A stretch of 64,000 bases of DNA from Christiangramia forsetii KT0803 (GTDB lineage: Bacteria > Bacteroidota > Bacteroidia > Flavobacteriales > Flavobacteriaceae): assembly GCF_000060345.1 (NCBI RefSeq), contig NC_008571.1, positions 2,852,001-2,916,000 of the forward strand, written 5' to 3'. The notes under the pieces are model-generated. The model did not search any database. It was not told the origin of the DNA and saw only the letters and a list, made by a program, of their open reading frames with translations. Every line of letters begins with the position of its first letter. Within the stretch, counting starts at the first letter, position 1. The position numbers were made by a program, and so were the translations under genes. Below are positions 56,271 through 64,000 of this stretch, in pieces.

Positions 56271-56300
56271 GGGTTGCGGGTTGCGGGTTGCGGGTTGCGG
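56271..56300. repeat. Perfect heptanucleotide tandem array GGGTTGC
   Basis: Four exact copies of GGGTTGC in a row (56271-56298) plus GG. It lies in the 246-base spacer between the divergent sigma factor and rluF genes. Confidence 0.9.
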
Positions 56301-56343
56301 AAAAATAATTATTGGTCTTACTTTAAAAGATTTATTCACAATT

Positions 56344-56385
56344 TTTCACTTTTCACTCTTCCCTCCTCACTCTTCATCATTCACT
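56344..56385. repeat. Degenerate heptanucleotide array, TTTCACT-like
   Basis: Six units in seven-base register: TTTCACT, TTTCACT, CTTCCCT, CCTCACT, CTTCATC, ATTCACT. It sits just before the rluF promoter element. Confidence 0.7.
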
Positions 56386-56395
56386 ATTTTCAAAG

Positions 56396-59265: not shown

Positions 59266-60165
59266 CTATTTTTTAGCATCAACAGCTCTTTTATGATGTC
59301 GCTCTCTGGCTAGAAGCGTGTTTTTCAACAACATCGAAACGGTCATGGGCCCTACTCCACCGGGCACAGGTGTGATAAACGACGCACGTTTACTTACATT
59401 TTCAAAATCAACATCTCCTTTAATCACATAACCTCGTTCGGCATGATCGTCTGGAACCCTTGTAATTCCAACATCGATGATCACTGCATCATCCTTGATC
59501 ATTTCACCTTTAAGAAAATCTGGAATACCCACGGCAATAATTATAATATCTGCCTGTGAAGTTACCTGGGTAATATTCTTTGTGAATTCGTGAGTTAACG
59601 TCACTGTAGAATTCCCCGGGAATCCGCTTCTTCCCATTAAAATACTCATAGGTCTCCCAACAATATAACTTCTACCAATAACAACCGTATGCTTGCCTTT
59701 TGTCGGAATATCATAACGCTCTAAAAGTTCTAATATTCCAAAAGGGGTAGCCGGAATGAAACTCGTCATATCCAACGCCATTTTCCCGAAATTTGTAGGA
59801 TGGAATCCATCTACATCTTTATCAGGATCTACGGCATTCAATACTTTCTGGGTATTTATCTGGGGGGGTAAAGGAAGCTGAACAATAAATCCGTCTATAT
59901 CGTCATTTTCGTTGAGCTCTTCGATCTTATCCAGCAGTTCCAGCTCACTCACCGTATGTGGAAGTCTGAAAAGTGAGGATTCAAAACCTACTCTTTCGCA
60001 GGCTTTAACTTTGGAATTCACATAAGTCATACTCGCACCGTCCTTACCTACAATAATTGCGGCAAGATGCGGTACTTTCTCTCCCCGTTTCTTAATTTTG
60101 GTAACCTCCCCAGCAATTTCATCTTTTATATCATTACTGATCTTTTTACCATCGAGAATAGTCAT
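59266..60165 (-). CDS. folD: Bifunctional methylenetetrahydrofolate dehydrogenase/cyclohydrolase
   Basis: Interconverts methylene-, methenyl- and formyl-tetrahydrofolate. The 299-residue protein has the YxxxK motif (YVNSK, Lys52), GFIVQLPLPPQINTQ, DKDVDGFHPTNFG, the NADP loop GRSYIVGRPM and the C-terminal TPVPGGVGPMT signature. Confidence 0.96.
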   Translation of the reverse strand: MTILDGKKISNDIKDEIAGEVTKIKKRGEKVPHLAAIIVGKDGASMTYVNSKVKACERVGFESSLFRLPHTVSELELLDKIEELNENDDIDGFIVQLPLPPQINTQKVLNAVDPDKDVDGFHPTNFGKMALDMTSFIPATPFGILELLERYDIPTKGKHTVVIGRSYIVGRPMSILMGRSGFPGNSTVTLTHEFTKNITQVTSQADIIIIAVGIPDFLKGEMIKDDAVIIDVGITRVPDDHAERGYVIKGDVDFENVSKRASFITPVPGGVGPMTVSMLLKNTLLARERHHKRAVDAKK

Positions 60166-60173
60166 ATTTTTTT

Positions 60174-60207
60174 CAGTATTCAGTTGGCAGTTGCAGTTGG
60201 CAGTTAT
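60174..60207. repeat. Heptanucleotide array, left flank of the four-helix-bundle gene
   Basis: CAGT recurs at 60174, 60181, 60188, 60194 and 60201 (steps 7, 7, 6, 7); units are CAGTATT, CAGTTGG, CAGTTG, CAGTTGG, CAGTTAT. It runs up to the stop codon of the four-helix-bundle gene. Confidence 0.75.
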
Positions 60208-60575
60208 TGCACCTTAACTCCAAATTTGCCAGGATTATTTATCATATAATTTAAAATCTTTCCTACTTCTTCACTTTTCAGATTCGACTCCTCAAATTCA
60301 AGCTTCGTAAGATATCCACACTCTTTTGCAAAATGCAACCAGCTCTGGGTCTCTGCATTTTCTGAATCACTATCAGTTAATTTGCTTTTGAAATGATTGG
60401 GATAATTCCTTTTTCGATATGCTTCTGCTATATTAGAACAAACCGACCTGGAACTTCTACGAATCTGGTCCGTTAAACTATAAGTTTCTTCTTTTGGAAA
60501 CTTTTTTGAAATTTCGAAAATCTTCATGGCTAACTCAAATGCTATCACATAAGCCTTTAAAGATTTAAAATCCAT
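60204..60575 (-). CDS. Four helix bundle protein (S23/IVP-like)
   Basis: A 123-residue, almost wholly helical protein. The family pattern is clear: DFKSLKAYVIAFELAMKIFE, FPKEETYSLTDQIRRSSRSV, CSNIAEAYRKRN, LHFAKECGYLTKLEFEE. The family was first met as open frames inside 23S rRNA intervening sequences, and a relative (Avd) serves in diversity-generating retroelements; no rRNA or reverse transcriptase gene is present here. It lies alone between folD and ffh, with heptanucleotide arrays touching both ends. Confidence 0.9.
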   Translation of the reverse strand: MDFKSLKAYVIAFELAMKIFEISKKFPKEETYSLTDQIRRSSRSVCSNIAEAYRKRNYPNHFKSKLTDSDSENAETQSWLHFAKECGYLTKLEFEESNLKSEEVGKILNYMINNPGKFGVKVQ

Positions 60576-60587
60576 ATTTTTATTCTT

Positions 60588-60617
60588 ACTCCTTACTGCT
60601 ACTGTTCACTGGACACT
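60588..60617. repeat. Heptanucleotide array, right flank of the four-helix-bundle gene
   Basis: ACT recurs at 60588, 60595, 60601, 60608 and 60615 (steps 7, 6, 7, 7). On the minus strand the units read AGTGTCC, AGTGAAC, AGTAGC, AGTAAGG, AGT: the same 7-7-6-7 rhythm as the left flank, in opposite orientation. Confidence 0.7.
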
Positions 60618-60622
60618 AAAAA

Positions 60623-61951
60623 TTATTGCATCCCCTTCATCATTTGCATCATTTTTCGGCCACCGCCACCTTGCATCATCTTCATCATTTTACCCATCTG
60701 GTTGAATTGCTTCAAAAGCTGATTCACTTCCTGAACCGTAGTCCCGGAACCTTTGGCAATTCTTTTCTTTCTGCTCGCATTGATCACCTTTGGCTCGCTT
60801 CTTTCTTCCGGAGTCATAGAATGGATAATGGCTTCAATACCTTTAAAAGCATCGTCATCAATATCAACATCCTTTAGCATCTTTCCTGCTCCCGGGATCA
60901 TTCCCATAAGATCTTTCATAGATCCCATTTTCTTGATCTGCTGAAGCTGATTCAGAAAATCATCAAAACCAAATGCGTTCTTTGCAATTTTTTTCTGAAG
61001 CTTTCTCGCTTCCTCTTCATCATACTGCTCCTGGGCTCTCTCTACAAGGGAAACAACATCCCCCATCCCCAGAATCCTGTCGGCCATACGCGAAGGATAA
61101 AAAATATCAATCGCATCCATCTTTTCACCGGTACCGATGAACTTGATAGGTTTATTTACAACAGATTTAATTGAGATTGCCGCACCACCACGAGTATCAC
61201 CATCTAATTTTGTAAGGATCACCCCGTCAAAATTCAGCCTTTCGTTGAAGGTTTTGGCTGTATTCACCGCATCCTGACCAGTCATAGAATCCACTACAAA
61301 TAGTGTTTCCTGTGGTTGGATTGCCTCATGAATATTTGAGATCTCGGTCATCATCGCCTCATCTACTGCAAGTCGACCCGCGGTATCAATAATCACCACA
61401 TTGTGACCATTTTCTTTGGCATAGGCAATTGCATCTTTAGAGATCGCAACCGGATCCTGATTTCCTTCATCAGAATACACCTCAACACCCACCTGTTCCC
61501 CAACTACATGAAGCTGGTTGATCGCTGCAGGACGGTATACATCACAGGCTACCAATAAAGGTTTTTTTGTTTTCTTGTTTTTTAGAAAATTTGCGAGTTT
61601 ACCAGAAAACGTTGTTTTACCACTACCCTGTAAGCCAGACATTAAAATCACAGAAGGATCTCCAGAAAGATTAATTCCTTCAGCTTCTCCACCCATCAAT
61701 TCGGTAAGCTCATCTTTAACAAGCTTTACCATCAACTGTCCCGGCTTAAGGGTAGTCAATACGTCCTGACCAAGAGCCCTTTCTTTTACCGTATTGGTAA
61801 ATTCTTTGGCTATTTTGTAGTTAACATCGGCATCAACCAAAGCACGGCGAACCTCTTTGAGGCTTTCCGCAACGTTTATCTCTGTAATCTGCCCATGCCC
61901 TTTCAGGACGTGAAAGGCACTATCTAACTTATCGCTTAAATTATCAAACAT
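60623..61951 (-). CDS. ffh: Signal recognition particle protein Ffh
   Basis: SRP54 GTPase that delivers nascent membrane proteins to the translocon with 4.5S RNA and FtsY. The 442-residue protein has an N domain (about 1-90), G domain with GLQGSGKTTFSGKLA, DTAGRLAVDEAM and TKLDGDTRGG, and a methionine-rich M domain ending in GKMMKMMQGGGGRKMMQMM. Confidence 0.97.
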   Translation of the reverse strand: MFDNLSDKLDSAFHVLKGHGQITEINVAESLKEVRRALVDADVNYKIAKEFTNTVKERALGQDVLTTLKPGQLMVKLVKDELTELMGGEAEGINLSGDPSVILMSGLQGSGKTTFSGKLANFLKNKKTKKPLLVACDVYRPAAINQLHVVGEQVGVEVYSDEGNQDPVAISKDAIAYAKENGHNVVIIDTAGRLAVDEAMMTEISNIHEAIQPQETLFVVDSMTGQDAVNTAKTFNERLNFDGVILTKLDGDTRGGAAISIKSVVNKPIKFIGTGEKMDAIDIFYPSRMADRILGMGDVVSLVERAQEQYDEEEARKLQKKIAKNAFGFDDFLNQLQQIKKMGSMKDLMGMIPGAGKMLKDVDIDDDAFKGIEAIIHSMTPEERSEPKVINASRKKRIAKGSGTTVQEVNQLLKQFNQMGKMMKMMQGGGGRKMMQMMKGMQ

Positions 61952-61996
61952 AATCTTTCCTGTGATTTTATTCTATGGCTGCTATGCAGCGAATTG

Positions 61997-62004
61997 CAAA
62001 TTTA
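61997..62004 (-). promoter_or_regulatory. -7 promoter element for ffh
   Basis: TAAATTTG on the minus strand, 45 bases before the ffh ATG. A small GCTGC/GCAGC hairpin (61978-61990) would lie in the leader. Confidence 0.45.
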
Positions 62005-62044
62005 ATGATTTGAAGCTGAAACAGAAAGTTCAATATTAAAATTT

Positions 62045-62068
62045 CATCCTTCGACTGCGCTCAGGATG
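62045..62068. repeat. Dispersed palindromic repeat, TCGACTGCGCTC type
   Basis: CATCCT (62045-62050) and AGGATG (62063-62068) enclose the core TCGACTGCGCTC, followed by ACA. The core also occurs at 30163-30174. Confidence 0.7.
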
Positions 62069-62110
62069 ACAATCGTATTTCTTAACGCCTTAAAATGCTT
62101 TTCAGTTTAG

Positions 62111-62131
62111 ATGCTGAAACAAGTTCAGCAT
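62111..62131. repeat. Dispersed palindromic repeat, CTGAAACAAGTTCAG type (single hairpin)
   Basis: Eight-base perfect stem (62111-62118 with 62124-62131), loop ACAAG, followed by GACG. The same loop and inner stem as the second hairpin at 38143-38163. Confidence 0.75.
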
Positions 62132-62203
62132 GACGAAATGTTTCACTTCGTACTTCCTCTTTTATTTACTTTCTTCCGAAGACTTCCGCAGATTCTTTTC
62201 TCC

Positions 62204-62238
62204 CTTCACTCTTCACTTCTCACTCTTCACTTCTAACT
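62204..62238. repeat. Degenerate heptanucleotide array, TTCACTC-like
   Basis: ACT recurs exactly every seven bases at 62208, 62215, 62222, 62229 and 62236 (units such as TTCACTC, TTCACTT, CTCACTC, TTCACTT, CTAACTT). It ends six bases before the argS stop. Confidence 0.75.
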
Positions 62239-62243
62239 TCAGC

Positions 62244-64000
62244 TTACATTCTCTCCGGAACCTCGATCCCAAGTAGCTTAAACCCTGATTTTATAACGTT
62301 TGCTACTAATCCTGACAATTGTACTCTGAAAACTTTTTCAGCTTCATCATCAATACCCAAAATCTGAACATTTTGATAAAAGGAATTGAAAGATTTCACC
62401 AGTTCATAGGTGTAATTAGCGATTAGTGCAGGCGAATGATTTTCTGCCGCTAAAGCAATGGTCTCTGGAAATAATTGAACCTGCTTGATCAATTCTTTCT
62501 CTTTTTCATGAAAACTAAACTCTTTCGATAGCTCTGCTGAAGTATCAAATTCAGCTTTTCTTAGAATTGACTGGATCCTTGCATAAGTATATTGAATAAA
62601 CGGCCCCGTATTTCCCTGAAAATCGACCGATTCTTCAGGATTAAAAAGGATTCGTTTTTTAGGGTCTACCTTTAAAATGTAATATTTCAAAGCTCCAAGC
62701 CCAATAATTCTGTATAGTTCTTCTTTTTCGGTTTCAGAATAGCCATCAAGCTTCCCTAATTCCTCTGAAATATTTTTAGCAGTTTCAGCCATTTCCCTAA
62801 TAAGATCATCAGCATCAACTACCGTACCTTCACGACTTTTCATCTTCCCGCTAGGAAGATCCACCATTCCGTAACTTAGGTGATACAAGGCATCTGCCCA
62901 ATCGTAACCAAGTTTTTTCAGAATAAGGAAAAGCACTTTAAAATGATATTCCTGTTCGTTCCCAACGGTATATACCATCTGGTTGATATCAAAATCTGCA
63001 AATCTCTGAATGGCAGTTCCAATATCCTGGGTCATATAAACCGCTGTTCCGTCACTTCTTAGAACGATCTTTTCATCCAGCCCCTCGTCACTAAGATCAA
63101 TCCAGACACTTCCATCATCTTTTTTATAAAAAACTCCGTCTTCCAGGCCTTTCTGAATATTATCCTTACCTAATATATAAGTTTCGCTTTCGTAATAATT
63201 CTTGTCAAAATCGACCCCGAGAGCATCATAGGTTTTCTCGAATCCGTCATAAACCCATTGGTTCATGGTAGACCAAAGTTTCACTACTTCCAGATCGTTC
63301 GCTTCCCATTTTCTCAGCATTTCCTGAGCTTCTACAAAAATTGGAGCCTGAGCCTTTGCTTCCTCTTCGCTCTTTCCTTCTTCCTTTAGCTGAGCTATTT
63401 CCTTCTTATATTCCTGATCAAATTTTACGTAGTAATTCCCAACCAGTTTATCGCCTTTTAGACCGGTAGATTGCGGAGTTTCTTCATTTCCAAATTTCTG
63501 CCAGGCGACCATAGATTTACAAATATGTATTCCACGGTCATTGATCACCTGCACCTTATAAACTTCATTTCCGGCCGCTTTTAAAATTTCAGAAACTGAA
63601 TATCCTAAGAGGTTGTTTCTAATATGACCAAGATGCAACGGCTTATTGGTATTAGGTGAAGAATATTCCACCATAATTCCGCTGGCGTCGCTTTGTGGCA
63701 AAAGAATCCCGAAATCTTCTCTATCCTTAACATCATTAAAGAAATTGATGTAATATTGGTCACTGATCACGATATTCAGAAAACCCTGAATTACATTAAA
63801 ACTGGCAACTTCTTCAACCTCATCTTCCAGATACTTCCCAATTTTTTCAGCTAATTGCGCAGGACTGGTTCTGAGCTGTTTTAGCATCGGAAAAACCACC
63901 AAAGTGATATCGCCTTCAAAATCTTTACGGGTAGGCTGAAATTCGATGTTTTCAGGTTCAACCTCATAATGCTTCTTGACGGCCTCGTTTACTTTTGATG
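62244..64000 (-). CDS. argS: Arginyl-tRNA synthetase (N-terminus beyond the right edge)
   Basis: Charges tRNA-Arg. The frame stays open to the right edge, so the first residues are missing; 585 residues are present, of which the first read KVNEAVKKHYEVEPENIEF. The class I motifs are NKPLHLGHIRNNLLG (HIGH type) and GKMKSREGTVV (KMSKS type). The N-terminal Arg-tRNA domain (LAEKIGKYL) and C-terminal anticodon-binding DALR domain (TGPFIQYTYARIQSILRKAE onward) are both seen. Confidence 0.95.
   Translation of the reverse strand, partial: SKVNEAVKKHYEVEPENIEFQPTRKDFEGDITLVVFPMLKQLRTSPAQLAEKIGKYLEDEVEEVASFNVIQGFLNIVISDQYYINFFNDVKDREDFGILLPQSDASGIMVEYSSPNTNKPLHLGHIRNNLLGYSVSEILKAAGNEVYKVQVINDRGIHICKSMVAWQKFGNEETPQSTGLKGDKLVGNYYVKFDQEYKKEIAQLKEEGKSEEEAKAQAPIFVEAQEMLRKWEANDLEVVKLWSTMNQWVYDGFEKTYDALGVDFDKNYYESETYILGKDNIQKGLEDGVFYKKDDGSVWIDLSDEGLDEKIVLRSDGTAVYMTQDIGTAIQRFADFDINQMVYTVGNEQEYHFKVLFLILKKLGYDWADALYHLSYGMVDLPSGKMKSREGTVVDADDLIREMAETAKNISEELGKLDGYSETEKEELYRIIGLGALKYYILKVDPKKRILFNPEESVDFQGNTGPFIQYTYARIQSILRKAEFDTSAELSKEFSFHEKEKELIKQVQLFPETIALAAENHSPALIANYTYELVKSFNSFYQNVQILGIDDEAEKVFRVQLSGLVANVIKSGFKLLGIEVPERM

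Follow-up and report, generated by a model that had tools for sequence, protein, structure and literature searches.

The stretch of DNA analysed here, called the window, comprises 64,000 nucleotides of Christiangramia forsetii KT0803 (contig NC_008571.1, positions 2,852,001 to 2,916,000). In it a small gene lies between folD and ffh, as the sequence-only reading had placed it, and is bordered on each side by an array of a degenerate seven-base unit, hereafter heptad. Together, the gene and the two inverted arrays form a cassette of approximately 450 bases. The features of the region are as follows.

59266..60165, minus strand: folD, the downstream neighbour (PF00763 and PF02882)
60170..60204, plus strand: folD-side heptad array, the downstream arm of the cassette, with a CAGT core at steps 7, 7, 6, 7 (lag-7 segment 60172-60205)
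60204..60575, minus strand: four-helix-bundle gene of the 23S_rRNA_IVP / S23 type, an open reading frame of 123 aa (PF05635, 109.2 bits; TIGR02436, 101.6 bits)
60588..60622, minus strand: ffh-side heptad array, the upstream arm, inverted relative to the folD-side arm, its end adjoining the ffh stop codon
60623..61951, minus strand: ffh, the upstream neighbour (TIGR00959, 620.5 bits)
62198..62240, no strand assigned: gene-less heptad array between ffh and argS, of the unit type found beside another gene copy of the window genome, L004 (its best match)
56343..56388, no strand assigned: second gene-less heptad array, of the same unit type as 62198..62240 (best match at the genus site of L004)

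The genes ffh, PF05635 and folD are all three on the minus strand; argS was assigned by TIGR00456. Both curated cut-offs of the 23S_rRNA_IVP / S23 family were passed by the window protein (33.8 bits for PF05635 and 24 bits for TIGR02436), which places it in this family. At an E value of 0.001, its only Pfam matches were PF05635 and bAvd, with no transposase and in particular no Y1 tyrosine transposase among them, and between the arrays no further complete open reading frame of at least 60 aa was found. A search of the region 59900-62300 for known RNA families returned none at gathering scores, and a single query against 50,697 phage records gave 0 matches at 1e-5.

On the plus strand, CAGT starts at positions 60174, 60181, 60188 and 60194, with a fifth occurrence at 60201 read off the sequence. 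On the minus strand, AGT starts at 60617, 60610, 60603, 60597 and 60590. Counted inward from the outer ends, the step series is 7, 7, 6, 7 on both sides, including the odd 6-base step. Like orphan heptamer repeats such as the STRRs of Calothrix, the units are tandem and intergenic. The best ungapped match between the arms (60170-60204 on the plus strand against 60622-60588 on the minus strand) covers 25 of 35 positions with a score of 15; none of 2000 shuffles and one of 3000 random placements in the window scored as high. The left array has a lag-7 self-match of 11 (0 of 2000 shuffles reach it). The right array is weak on its own, since 39 of 2000 shuffles attain its self-match of 7, a value that is also obtained at lags 6 and 13. 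This weakness speaks for a chance pattern at the window locus, but both arrays together were matched by none of the 2000 shuffles and the arrangement recurs throughout the family, so that the probability of mere chance is close to nil. The inverted arrays described around the gene by the sequence-only reading are real.

The flanks of other family members were inspected by a lag scan, in which self-match is scored at each lag; for two of the sets, of 35 and 80 loci, 120-base flanks and a threshold of 10 were used. For 35 of 38 loci from the genus and order (three missed by a one-sequence phmmer search were left out), lag 7 passed in 19 upstream and 15 downstream flanks, and lags 3-6 and 8-13 gave 0-2. 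The 80 named loci, mainly Bacteroidota, are the best 80 of at least 582 confirmed matches and constitute an uneven sample, since the query was rich in fad-site members; one of them, L089, duplicates the genus locus L050. Lag 7 was found in 52 of 79 upstream flanks (one being too short) and 49 of 80 downstream flanks, against 0-1 for the other lags up to 13. Among 18 plasmid loci from 30 records (17 cyanobacterial and one from Riemerella, two near-identical pairs being kept), examined with 150-base flanks, the numbers were 15 upstream and 11 downstream, the other lags up to 13 giving 0-5 (5 at lag 8). Finally, tests within the genus were made on the 132 intact genes of 151 copies, the 19 under 95 aa being left out, and with 100-base flanks lag 7 was found in 72 upstream and 54 downstream. 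A first broad profile query had found no conserved stretch. In the same 132 loci lag 8 was found in 15 upstream and 13 downstream flanks, possibly octads or slipped heptads, and the remaining lags up to 13 in 0-7.

Two other small gene families of the same genomes served as controls. Lag 7 was detected around none of 24 GxxExxY genes, upstream or downstream (24 of 26 loci, without two weak partial matches), and around none of 23 small GIY-YIG genes on either side (23 of 30 loci, long proteins left out). An enrichment of arrays at other family members, which the sequence-only reading had proposed beforehand as a check, is thus well supported: the association of gene and array is general in the family and is found in two distant bacterial groups.

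Cyanobacterial plasmids also furnished cases next to cas genes (L438, L442 and L444): in two the PF05635 gene lies between cas6 and cas4 with heptads adjoining, and in a third it lies between cas10 and a cmr3-type gene. IVP genes have been reported in cas operons (PMC3936711; papers given by PMC number are cited here from excerpts), and such reports may reflect the same habit of occupying slots.

The two arrays of a locus belong together. When the upstream array was compared with the reverse complement of its own downstream array, a score of at least 12 was obtained in 95 of 132 genus loci, versus 68 of 1056 comparisons with other loci. With one locus per site the proportions were 17/25 versus 9/200, and for the named loci (79 of the 80 were used) 59/79 versus 192/632. 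Direct, non-inverted matches within a locus were found in 17/132 genus loci, 9/25 loci taken one per site and 19/79 named loci, some loci having arrays both ways. By eye, a unit that changes between species at one site tends to change at both ends. Polymerase slippage, which would let heptads pile up in spacers and place the gene merely in repeat-rich ones, has been proposed for such repeats, among which heptamers are over-represented or the most abundant in many genomes (PMC4692102, PMC4679880). Slippage does not yield inverted, locus-matched pairs around one gene family; nor would it spare other small genes, which scored 0 at lag 7, or follow gene copy number within one genus as described below. 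We consider it very improbable.

Array type also goes with protein lineage, most clearly in a broad set of 212 loci. For pairs at different sites, the proportion sharing an array was 0.01 below 30% protein identity, 0.41 at 60-70% and 0.63 at 70-80% (n=27), in a set without L089 and proteins under 95 aa, where pairs under 40% identity were subsampled and pairs are non-independent. Inside the genus, sharing accompanied protein closeness only among the closest relatives, with 0.31 of the 39 pairs that are at least 55% identical. There the site-level test of array type against lineage was not significant (96/300), and the locus-level rho of 0.055 was above all 300 within-genome permutations (maximum 0.040). 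The closest pair observed at two sites of one genome, L090 and L091 of Aequorivita, has 72% protein identity and matching arrays. Gene and arrays form a single unit, and to this extent the mobile unit proposed by the sequence-only reading stands.

In 23 genomes of the genus, the 151 PF05635 copies occupy 19 shared and 7 singleton sites, with an occupancy of 3 to 15 of the 23 genomes per site (sites 0-16). Copies under 95 aa number 19 of 151, a few of them cut by contig ends. Empty folD-ffh sites, the other check proposed beforehand, are present in relatives: among 24 genus genomes, 7 slots are filled (one with an internal stop), 13 are short spacers of 38-50 nt and 4 are of other kinds, namely one of 70 nt and three with a different palindromic element. 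In the latter (L011, L013 and L027, the spacers of G010, G017 and G009), CCCCC..GGGGG and CTCCCC..GGGGAG palindromes fill most of 102-108 nt, and in G009 the palindromic element is followed by a leftover heptad array. On a tree of ffh and folD, in which 10 of 21 branches are well supported, the 7 filled genomes require 7 changes. Seven of the 13 short spacers begin with TAATTCCCTTTTTT (by eye), and since they belong to separate branches, the empty form is probably older than the filled one, as this common start suggests.

A second slot, fadB-fadA, was inspected in 22 genomes, of which 13 are filled and 7 are empty; the other two, which are sisters, carry the downstream array by itself, without the gene. 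TAG is the fadB stop codon in 10/13 filled, 2/2 lone-array and 0/7 empty slots, as if the array extended into it. In both slots the empty spacer is replaced by the cassette rather than split, so that no target duplication can be read.

Pfam searches of the neighbours at 15 sites (30 proteins, 27 with a match) gave, in our reading as gene names, fadB/fadA, an iron-sulphur protein/sufB, hemF/hemB, two CoA-transferase subunits, hisH/hisA, ruvX/def and acrB with an outer-membrane efflux gene. A thiolase-like gene, located by its start, follows in 33 of the 80 named loci, and several families are represented, two cases being confirmed by TIGR01930. Both neighbours run in the same direction as the gene in 119/132 genus loci, 22/25 sites and 73/79 named loci; the slots would lie within operons.

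The copies at a site are old residents. The nearest protein relative was located at the same site in 121 of 125 cases, and proteins at different sites of one genus genome were at most 56% identical; six sites hold protein pairs that are just 15-34% identical. For same-site pairs at least 50% identical, site means were 64-81% at the protein level and 32-62%, mostly near 40%, at four-fold silent sites. Saturation of the silent sites alongside a conserved protein shows that the copies are old and that purifying selection acts on the protein. Arrays were more alike within than between sites at 17/17 sites upstream and 16/17 downstream, with identities within sites of 49-78% upstream and 39-89% downstream, against 45% and 43% between sites; the latter is the sole fair baseline, since array identity is gapped and silent-site identity is counted position by position. 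Because of the same-site relatives, the low identity within genomes and the saturated silent sites, the cassette looks like an old one, gained, lost and replaced at recurrent slots, and not like an active jumping element. These results speak against free mobility, and the interpretation of the sequence-only reading as a mobile cassette is, with both checks favourable, partly supported.

Near-identical copies at two sites were absent from all 23 genus genomes, and recent transposition in the genus was rejected on this ground. A transposon-like DNA unit with heptad ends might still be mobile if moved in trans by a transposase or recombinase encoded elsewhere, the window cassette having none of its own as a DNA transposon would. 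Such a unit would explain the inverted, locus-matched ends, the empty sites, the array type that tracks lineage across sites and the two copies with matching arrays in Aequorivita. We nevertheless consider it quite unlikely: near-identical copies at two sites were seen in none of the 23 genomes, nearest relatives share a site in 121/125 cases, silent sites are saturated, and the short spacer is replaced instead of split, with no readable target duplication.

Heptad arrays are not confined to the cassettes. In 464 kb sampled from the window genome, 10 array loci passed a stricter threshold of 12, all of them away from PF05635 genes; the window cassette's own arrays score just below this threshold. 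Two gene-rich genomes (G000 and G002) had 17 array loci in 664 kb, one adjoining a PF05635 gene, versus 4 in 1000 kb for five gene-poor genomes of the same genus. In these samples, from which segments with one base above 70% were left out, the control lags gave 6 loci in gene-rich versus 15 in gene-poor genomes at lag 6, and 11 versus 2 at lag 8.

Gene-less arrays resemble those flanking genes. For 19 arrays hand-picked from the window genome and G002 (two AT-rich weak ones and a weak one near L079 being left out), the mean score was 20.7, versus 15.5 for unit-permuted controls, and 17 of 19 were above their own control mean. Two of the 19 were not above their controls, and window position 56271 and L079:7011 are among those whose best score did not exceed them. 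The two gene-less arrays of the feature list scored 26 (62198..62240 against L004; controls 15-24) and 24 (56343..56388; controls 14-22).

In 39 genomes, the density per megabase of one heptad pattern correlated with the number of PF05635 genes with a rho of 0.80 (0.86 in the 22 more complete genus genomes), a correlation only, in which the count takes in the arrays beside the genes themselves and which stands without a genome-wide non-heptad control. The reversed pattern is no independent control, because it also has period 7 and correlates as well (0.84). Ten genomes without a PF05635 gene, some of them incomplete, had 0-4 heptad matches, and eight genomes with at least nine genes had 15-145. 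Among five sister pairs, four agreed in direction and one, with very low numbers, disagreed. Genome size correlated more weakly with the pattern (rho 0.55-0.64). The number of heptad arrays in a genome thus follows its number of PF05635 genes, and most sampled arrays lie away from the gene. One genome, G024, is an outlier: it has 5 PF05635 genes and 277 matches to the AGT-type heptad pattern, but just 7 to the reversed one. One rRNA operon (L072:5953-8090) carries several heptad arrays of different units, located ahead of 16S (by eye) and in the spacers on either side of tRNA-Ile, which separate it from 16S and from tRNA-Ala.

Such dispersed arrays would also be expected of a domesticated operon regulator, in which each protein would control a DNA or RNA regulon by binding arrays of its unit, both next to its own gene and at further operons, and the arrays would be kept for regulation. 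The shared units in other spacers agree with this, as do the conserved protein with its saturated silent sites, arrays conserved above the between-site background, the housekeeping genes adjoining the slots, the thiolase-like genes of several families downstream, and the proposal that heptamer repeats near start codons are regulator sites in Beggiatoaceae (PMC4679880). The patchy occupancy of the sites, the share of copies shorter than 95 aa, the unrelated protein lineages at one site and the cleanly empty state of the same slot in close relatives all speak against it, and we judge regulation an unlikely explanation.

We favour, with a probability of roughly 55%, the reading that the cassette is a spacer member of the 23S intervening-sequence (S23 protein) elements, whose protein would recognise its own arrays in a manner similar to REP-RAYT systems and without a known nuclease. 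In REP-RAYT systems a repeat flanks the gene in inverted copies and also occurs dispersed without it, the copy numbers of the two go together, and RAYT proteins are thought to promote the upkeep and spread of REPs in trans. The gene studied here is likewise bounded by inverted repeats that are also dispersed without it, the correspondence being one of unit types and not of one fixed sequence. The window cassette differs in that no transposase domain was found, and its repeats are tandem heptads with a locus-specific unit instead of palindromes.

The nearest element described so far, the intervening sequence (IVS) of the Coxiella burnetii 23S gene, resembles the window cassette in several respects: a protein of the same family by description, a gene between terminal inverted repeats, a size of about 430-460 nt and tandem heptamers upstream. 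There, the S23 gene lies within 28-bp terminal inverted repeats that RNase III cuts in vitro, and its start codon is immediately preceded by two or three tandem heptamers plus a degenerate one; the protein itself seems not to be produced, and the authors regard the RNA as the part more likely to matter, which speaks against a role of the protein (PMC4990558). The window insert, in contrast, sits between the protein genes folD and ffh and not in a 23S rRNA helix, both its arms are heptad arrays, 9 PF05635 genes are present in its genome, and arrays without the gene are scattered elsewhere. A third comparison is with Avd of diversity-generating retroelements, a related family, and kinship of IVP to Avd has been described (PMC10053308). 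The window protein passed the bAvd cut-off of Pfam (53.3 versus 40 bits), but PF05635 was a far better match at 109.2 bits, the Avd equivalog model NF033474 failed (31.1 versus a cut-off of 80), and the immediate neighbours of the gene are ffh and folD.

Terminal pairing, as in the 23S IVS, was found for the window arms: as a duplex they reach -35.6 kcal/mol, and the folded cassette has 26 arm-to-arm pairs. Since the arms can pair, excision from a transcript is possible. Selection on the stem at the RNA level was looked for and rejected, as there was neither a sense-strand G-U bias nor a sense-strand stability preference. Mismatches tolerated as G-U numbered 102 on the transcribed strand versus 96 on the other in the genus, and 42 versus 72 in the named loci (p 0.006, in the wrong direction), and the sense duplex was the more stable in only 61/132 genus and 29/80 named loci; any role of the stem is putative. 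The PF05635 protein has solved relatives, 2gsc (Xcc0516) and 2rld, of which Xcc0516 is a toroidal homopentamer (PMC4990558).

Under the favoured S23-element reading, the protein would bind its own arrays and, like a RAYT, promote their upkeep and spread in trans. In the transcript, the paired arrays might fold into a stem, which would allow the insert to be excised or tolerated in the way known from 23S rRNA. New slots would be filled rarely, and subsequent allele exchange, decay and loss would give rise to the patchy pattern.

Heptamers themselves are known from other settings. In Xanthomonas and Nostoc, GGGNATC heptamers occur preferably between aligned genes, and the Xanthomonas repeats are reported in regions of increased stability, which counts against our main reading (PMC4692102). 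TAACTGA heptamers occur in Beggiatoaceae, Cyanobacteria and Bacteroidetes, with two sets in Gramella forsetii, and a TAACTGA-binding protein that might itself be a mobile element has been proposed; the genes discussed are others, XisH/XisI and an RNA polymerase subunit (PMC4679880). These orphan heptamers share with the arrays described here the tandem seven-base units in spacers, whereas the heptads of the present analysis accompany PF05635 genes, both in Bacteroidota and on plasmids of cyanobacteria. The terms S23 and four helix do not occur in the texts of PMC4692102 and PMC4679880, nor does "intervening" in that of PMC4679880. IVP genes are reported in rRNA inserts of CPR bacteria (PMC11270868), and four helix bundle genes, but not heptamers, are named in the available part of PMC8700078. 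In the Coxiella paper, heptamers are connected with a single S23 gene, which lies within 23S rRNA (PMC4990558). In the excerpts of the open-access literature, to which the search extended (subscription papers and preprints lying outside it), no link of spacer PF05635 genes to heptad arrays was found.

Two problems are joined by the association of gene and array. The heptamers of Cyanobacteria, Xanthomonas, Beggiatoaceae and Bacteroidetes have been described, in the excerpts cited, without an established partner gene (PMC4692102, PMC4679880), and S23/IVP proteins as having no known function (PMC4990558). In view of the link to arrays, rRNA intervening sequences would be members of a far wider class of spacer elements, and an S23/IVP protein of the window type is a concrete candidate for the mobile TAACTGA-binding protein proposed in PMC4679880. 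More tentatively, and with some doubt, the S23/IVP protein could be the missing trans-acting factor that maintains and spreads tandem heptamers across bacteria, in Bacteroidota and Cyanobacteria and, by a putative extension, in Xanthomonas and Beggiatoaceae; it would be nuclease-free, with the 23S IVS as a special case.

Other pairings of a gene with a repeat were seen in the course of the analysis. GxxExxY genes (PF13366) in relatives of the window genome (L169-L194) often lie between inverted dispersed repeats of their own, without heptads and of the types CACGGATT, CATTCGTG and CACAGAG (by eye), a second gene-plus-repeat pairing. Within 8 kb of one genome (G002:C1:3917914-3925814; L190, L232, L241 and L235), three PF05635 genes are found together with one GxxExxY gene. 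Many small GIY-YIG genes (L195-L217) lie between inverted repeats such as CTGAGCGCAGTCGAAG (by eye), and a copy of this repeat type, without a GIY-YIG gene, is present in the window between ffh and argS, at about 62043-62065.
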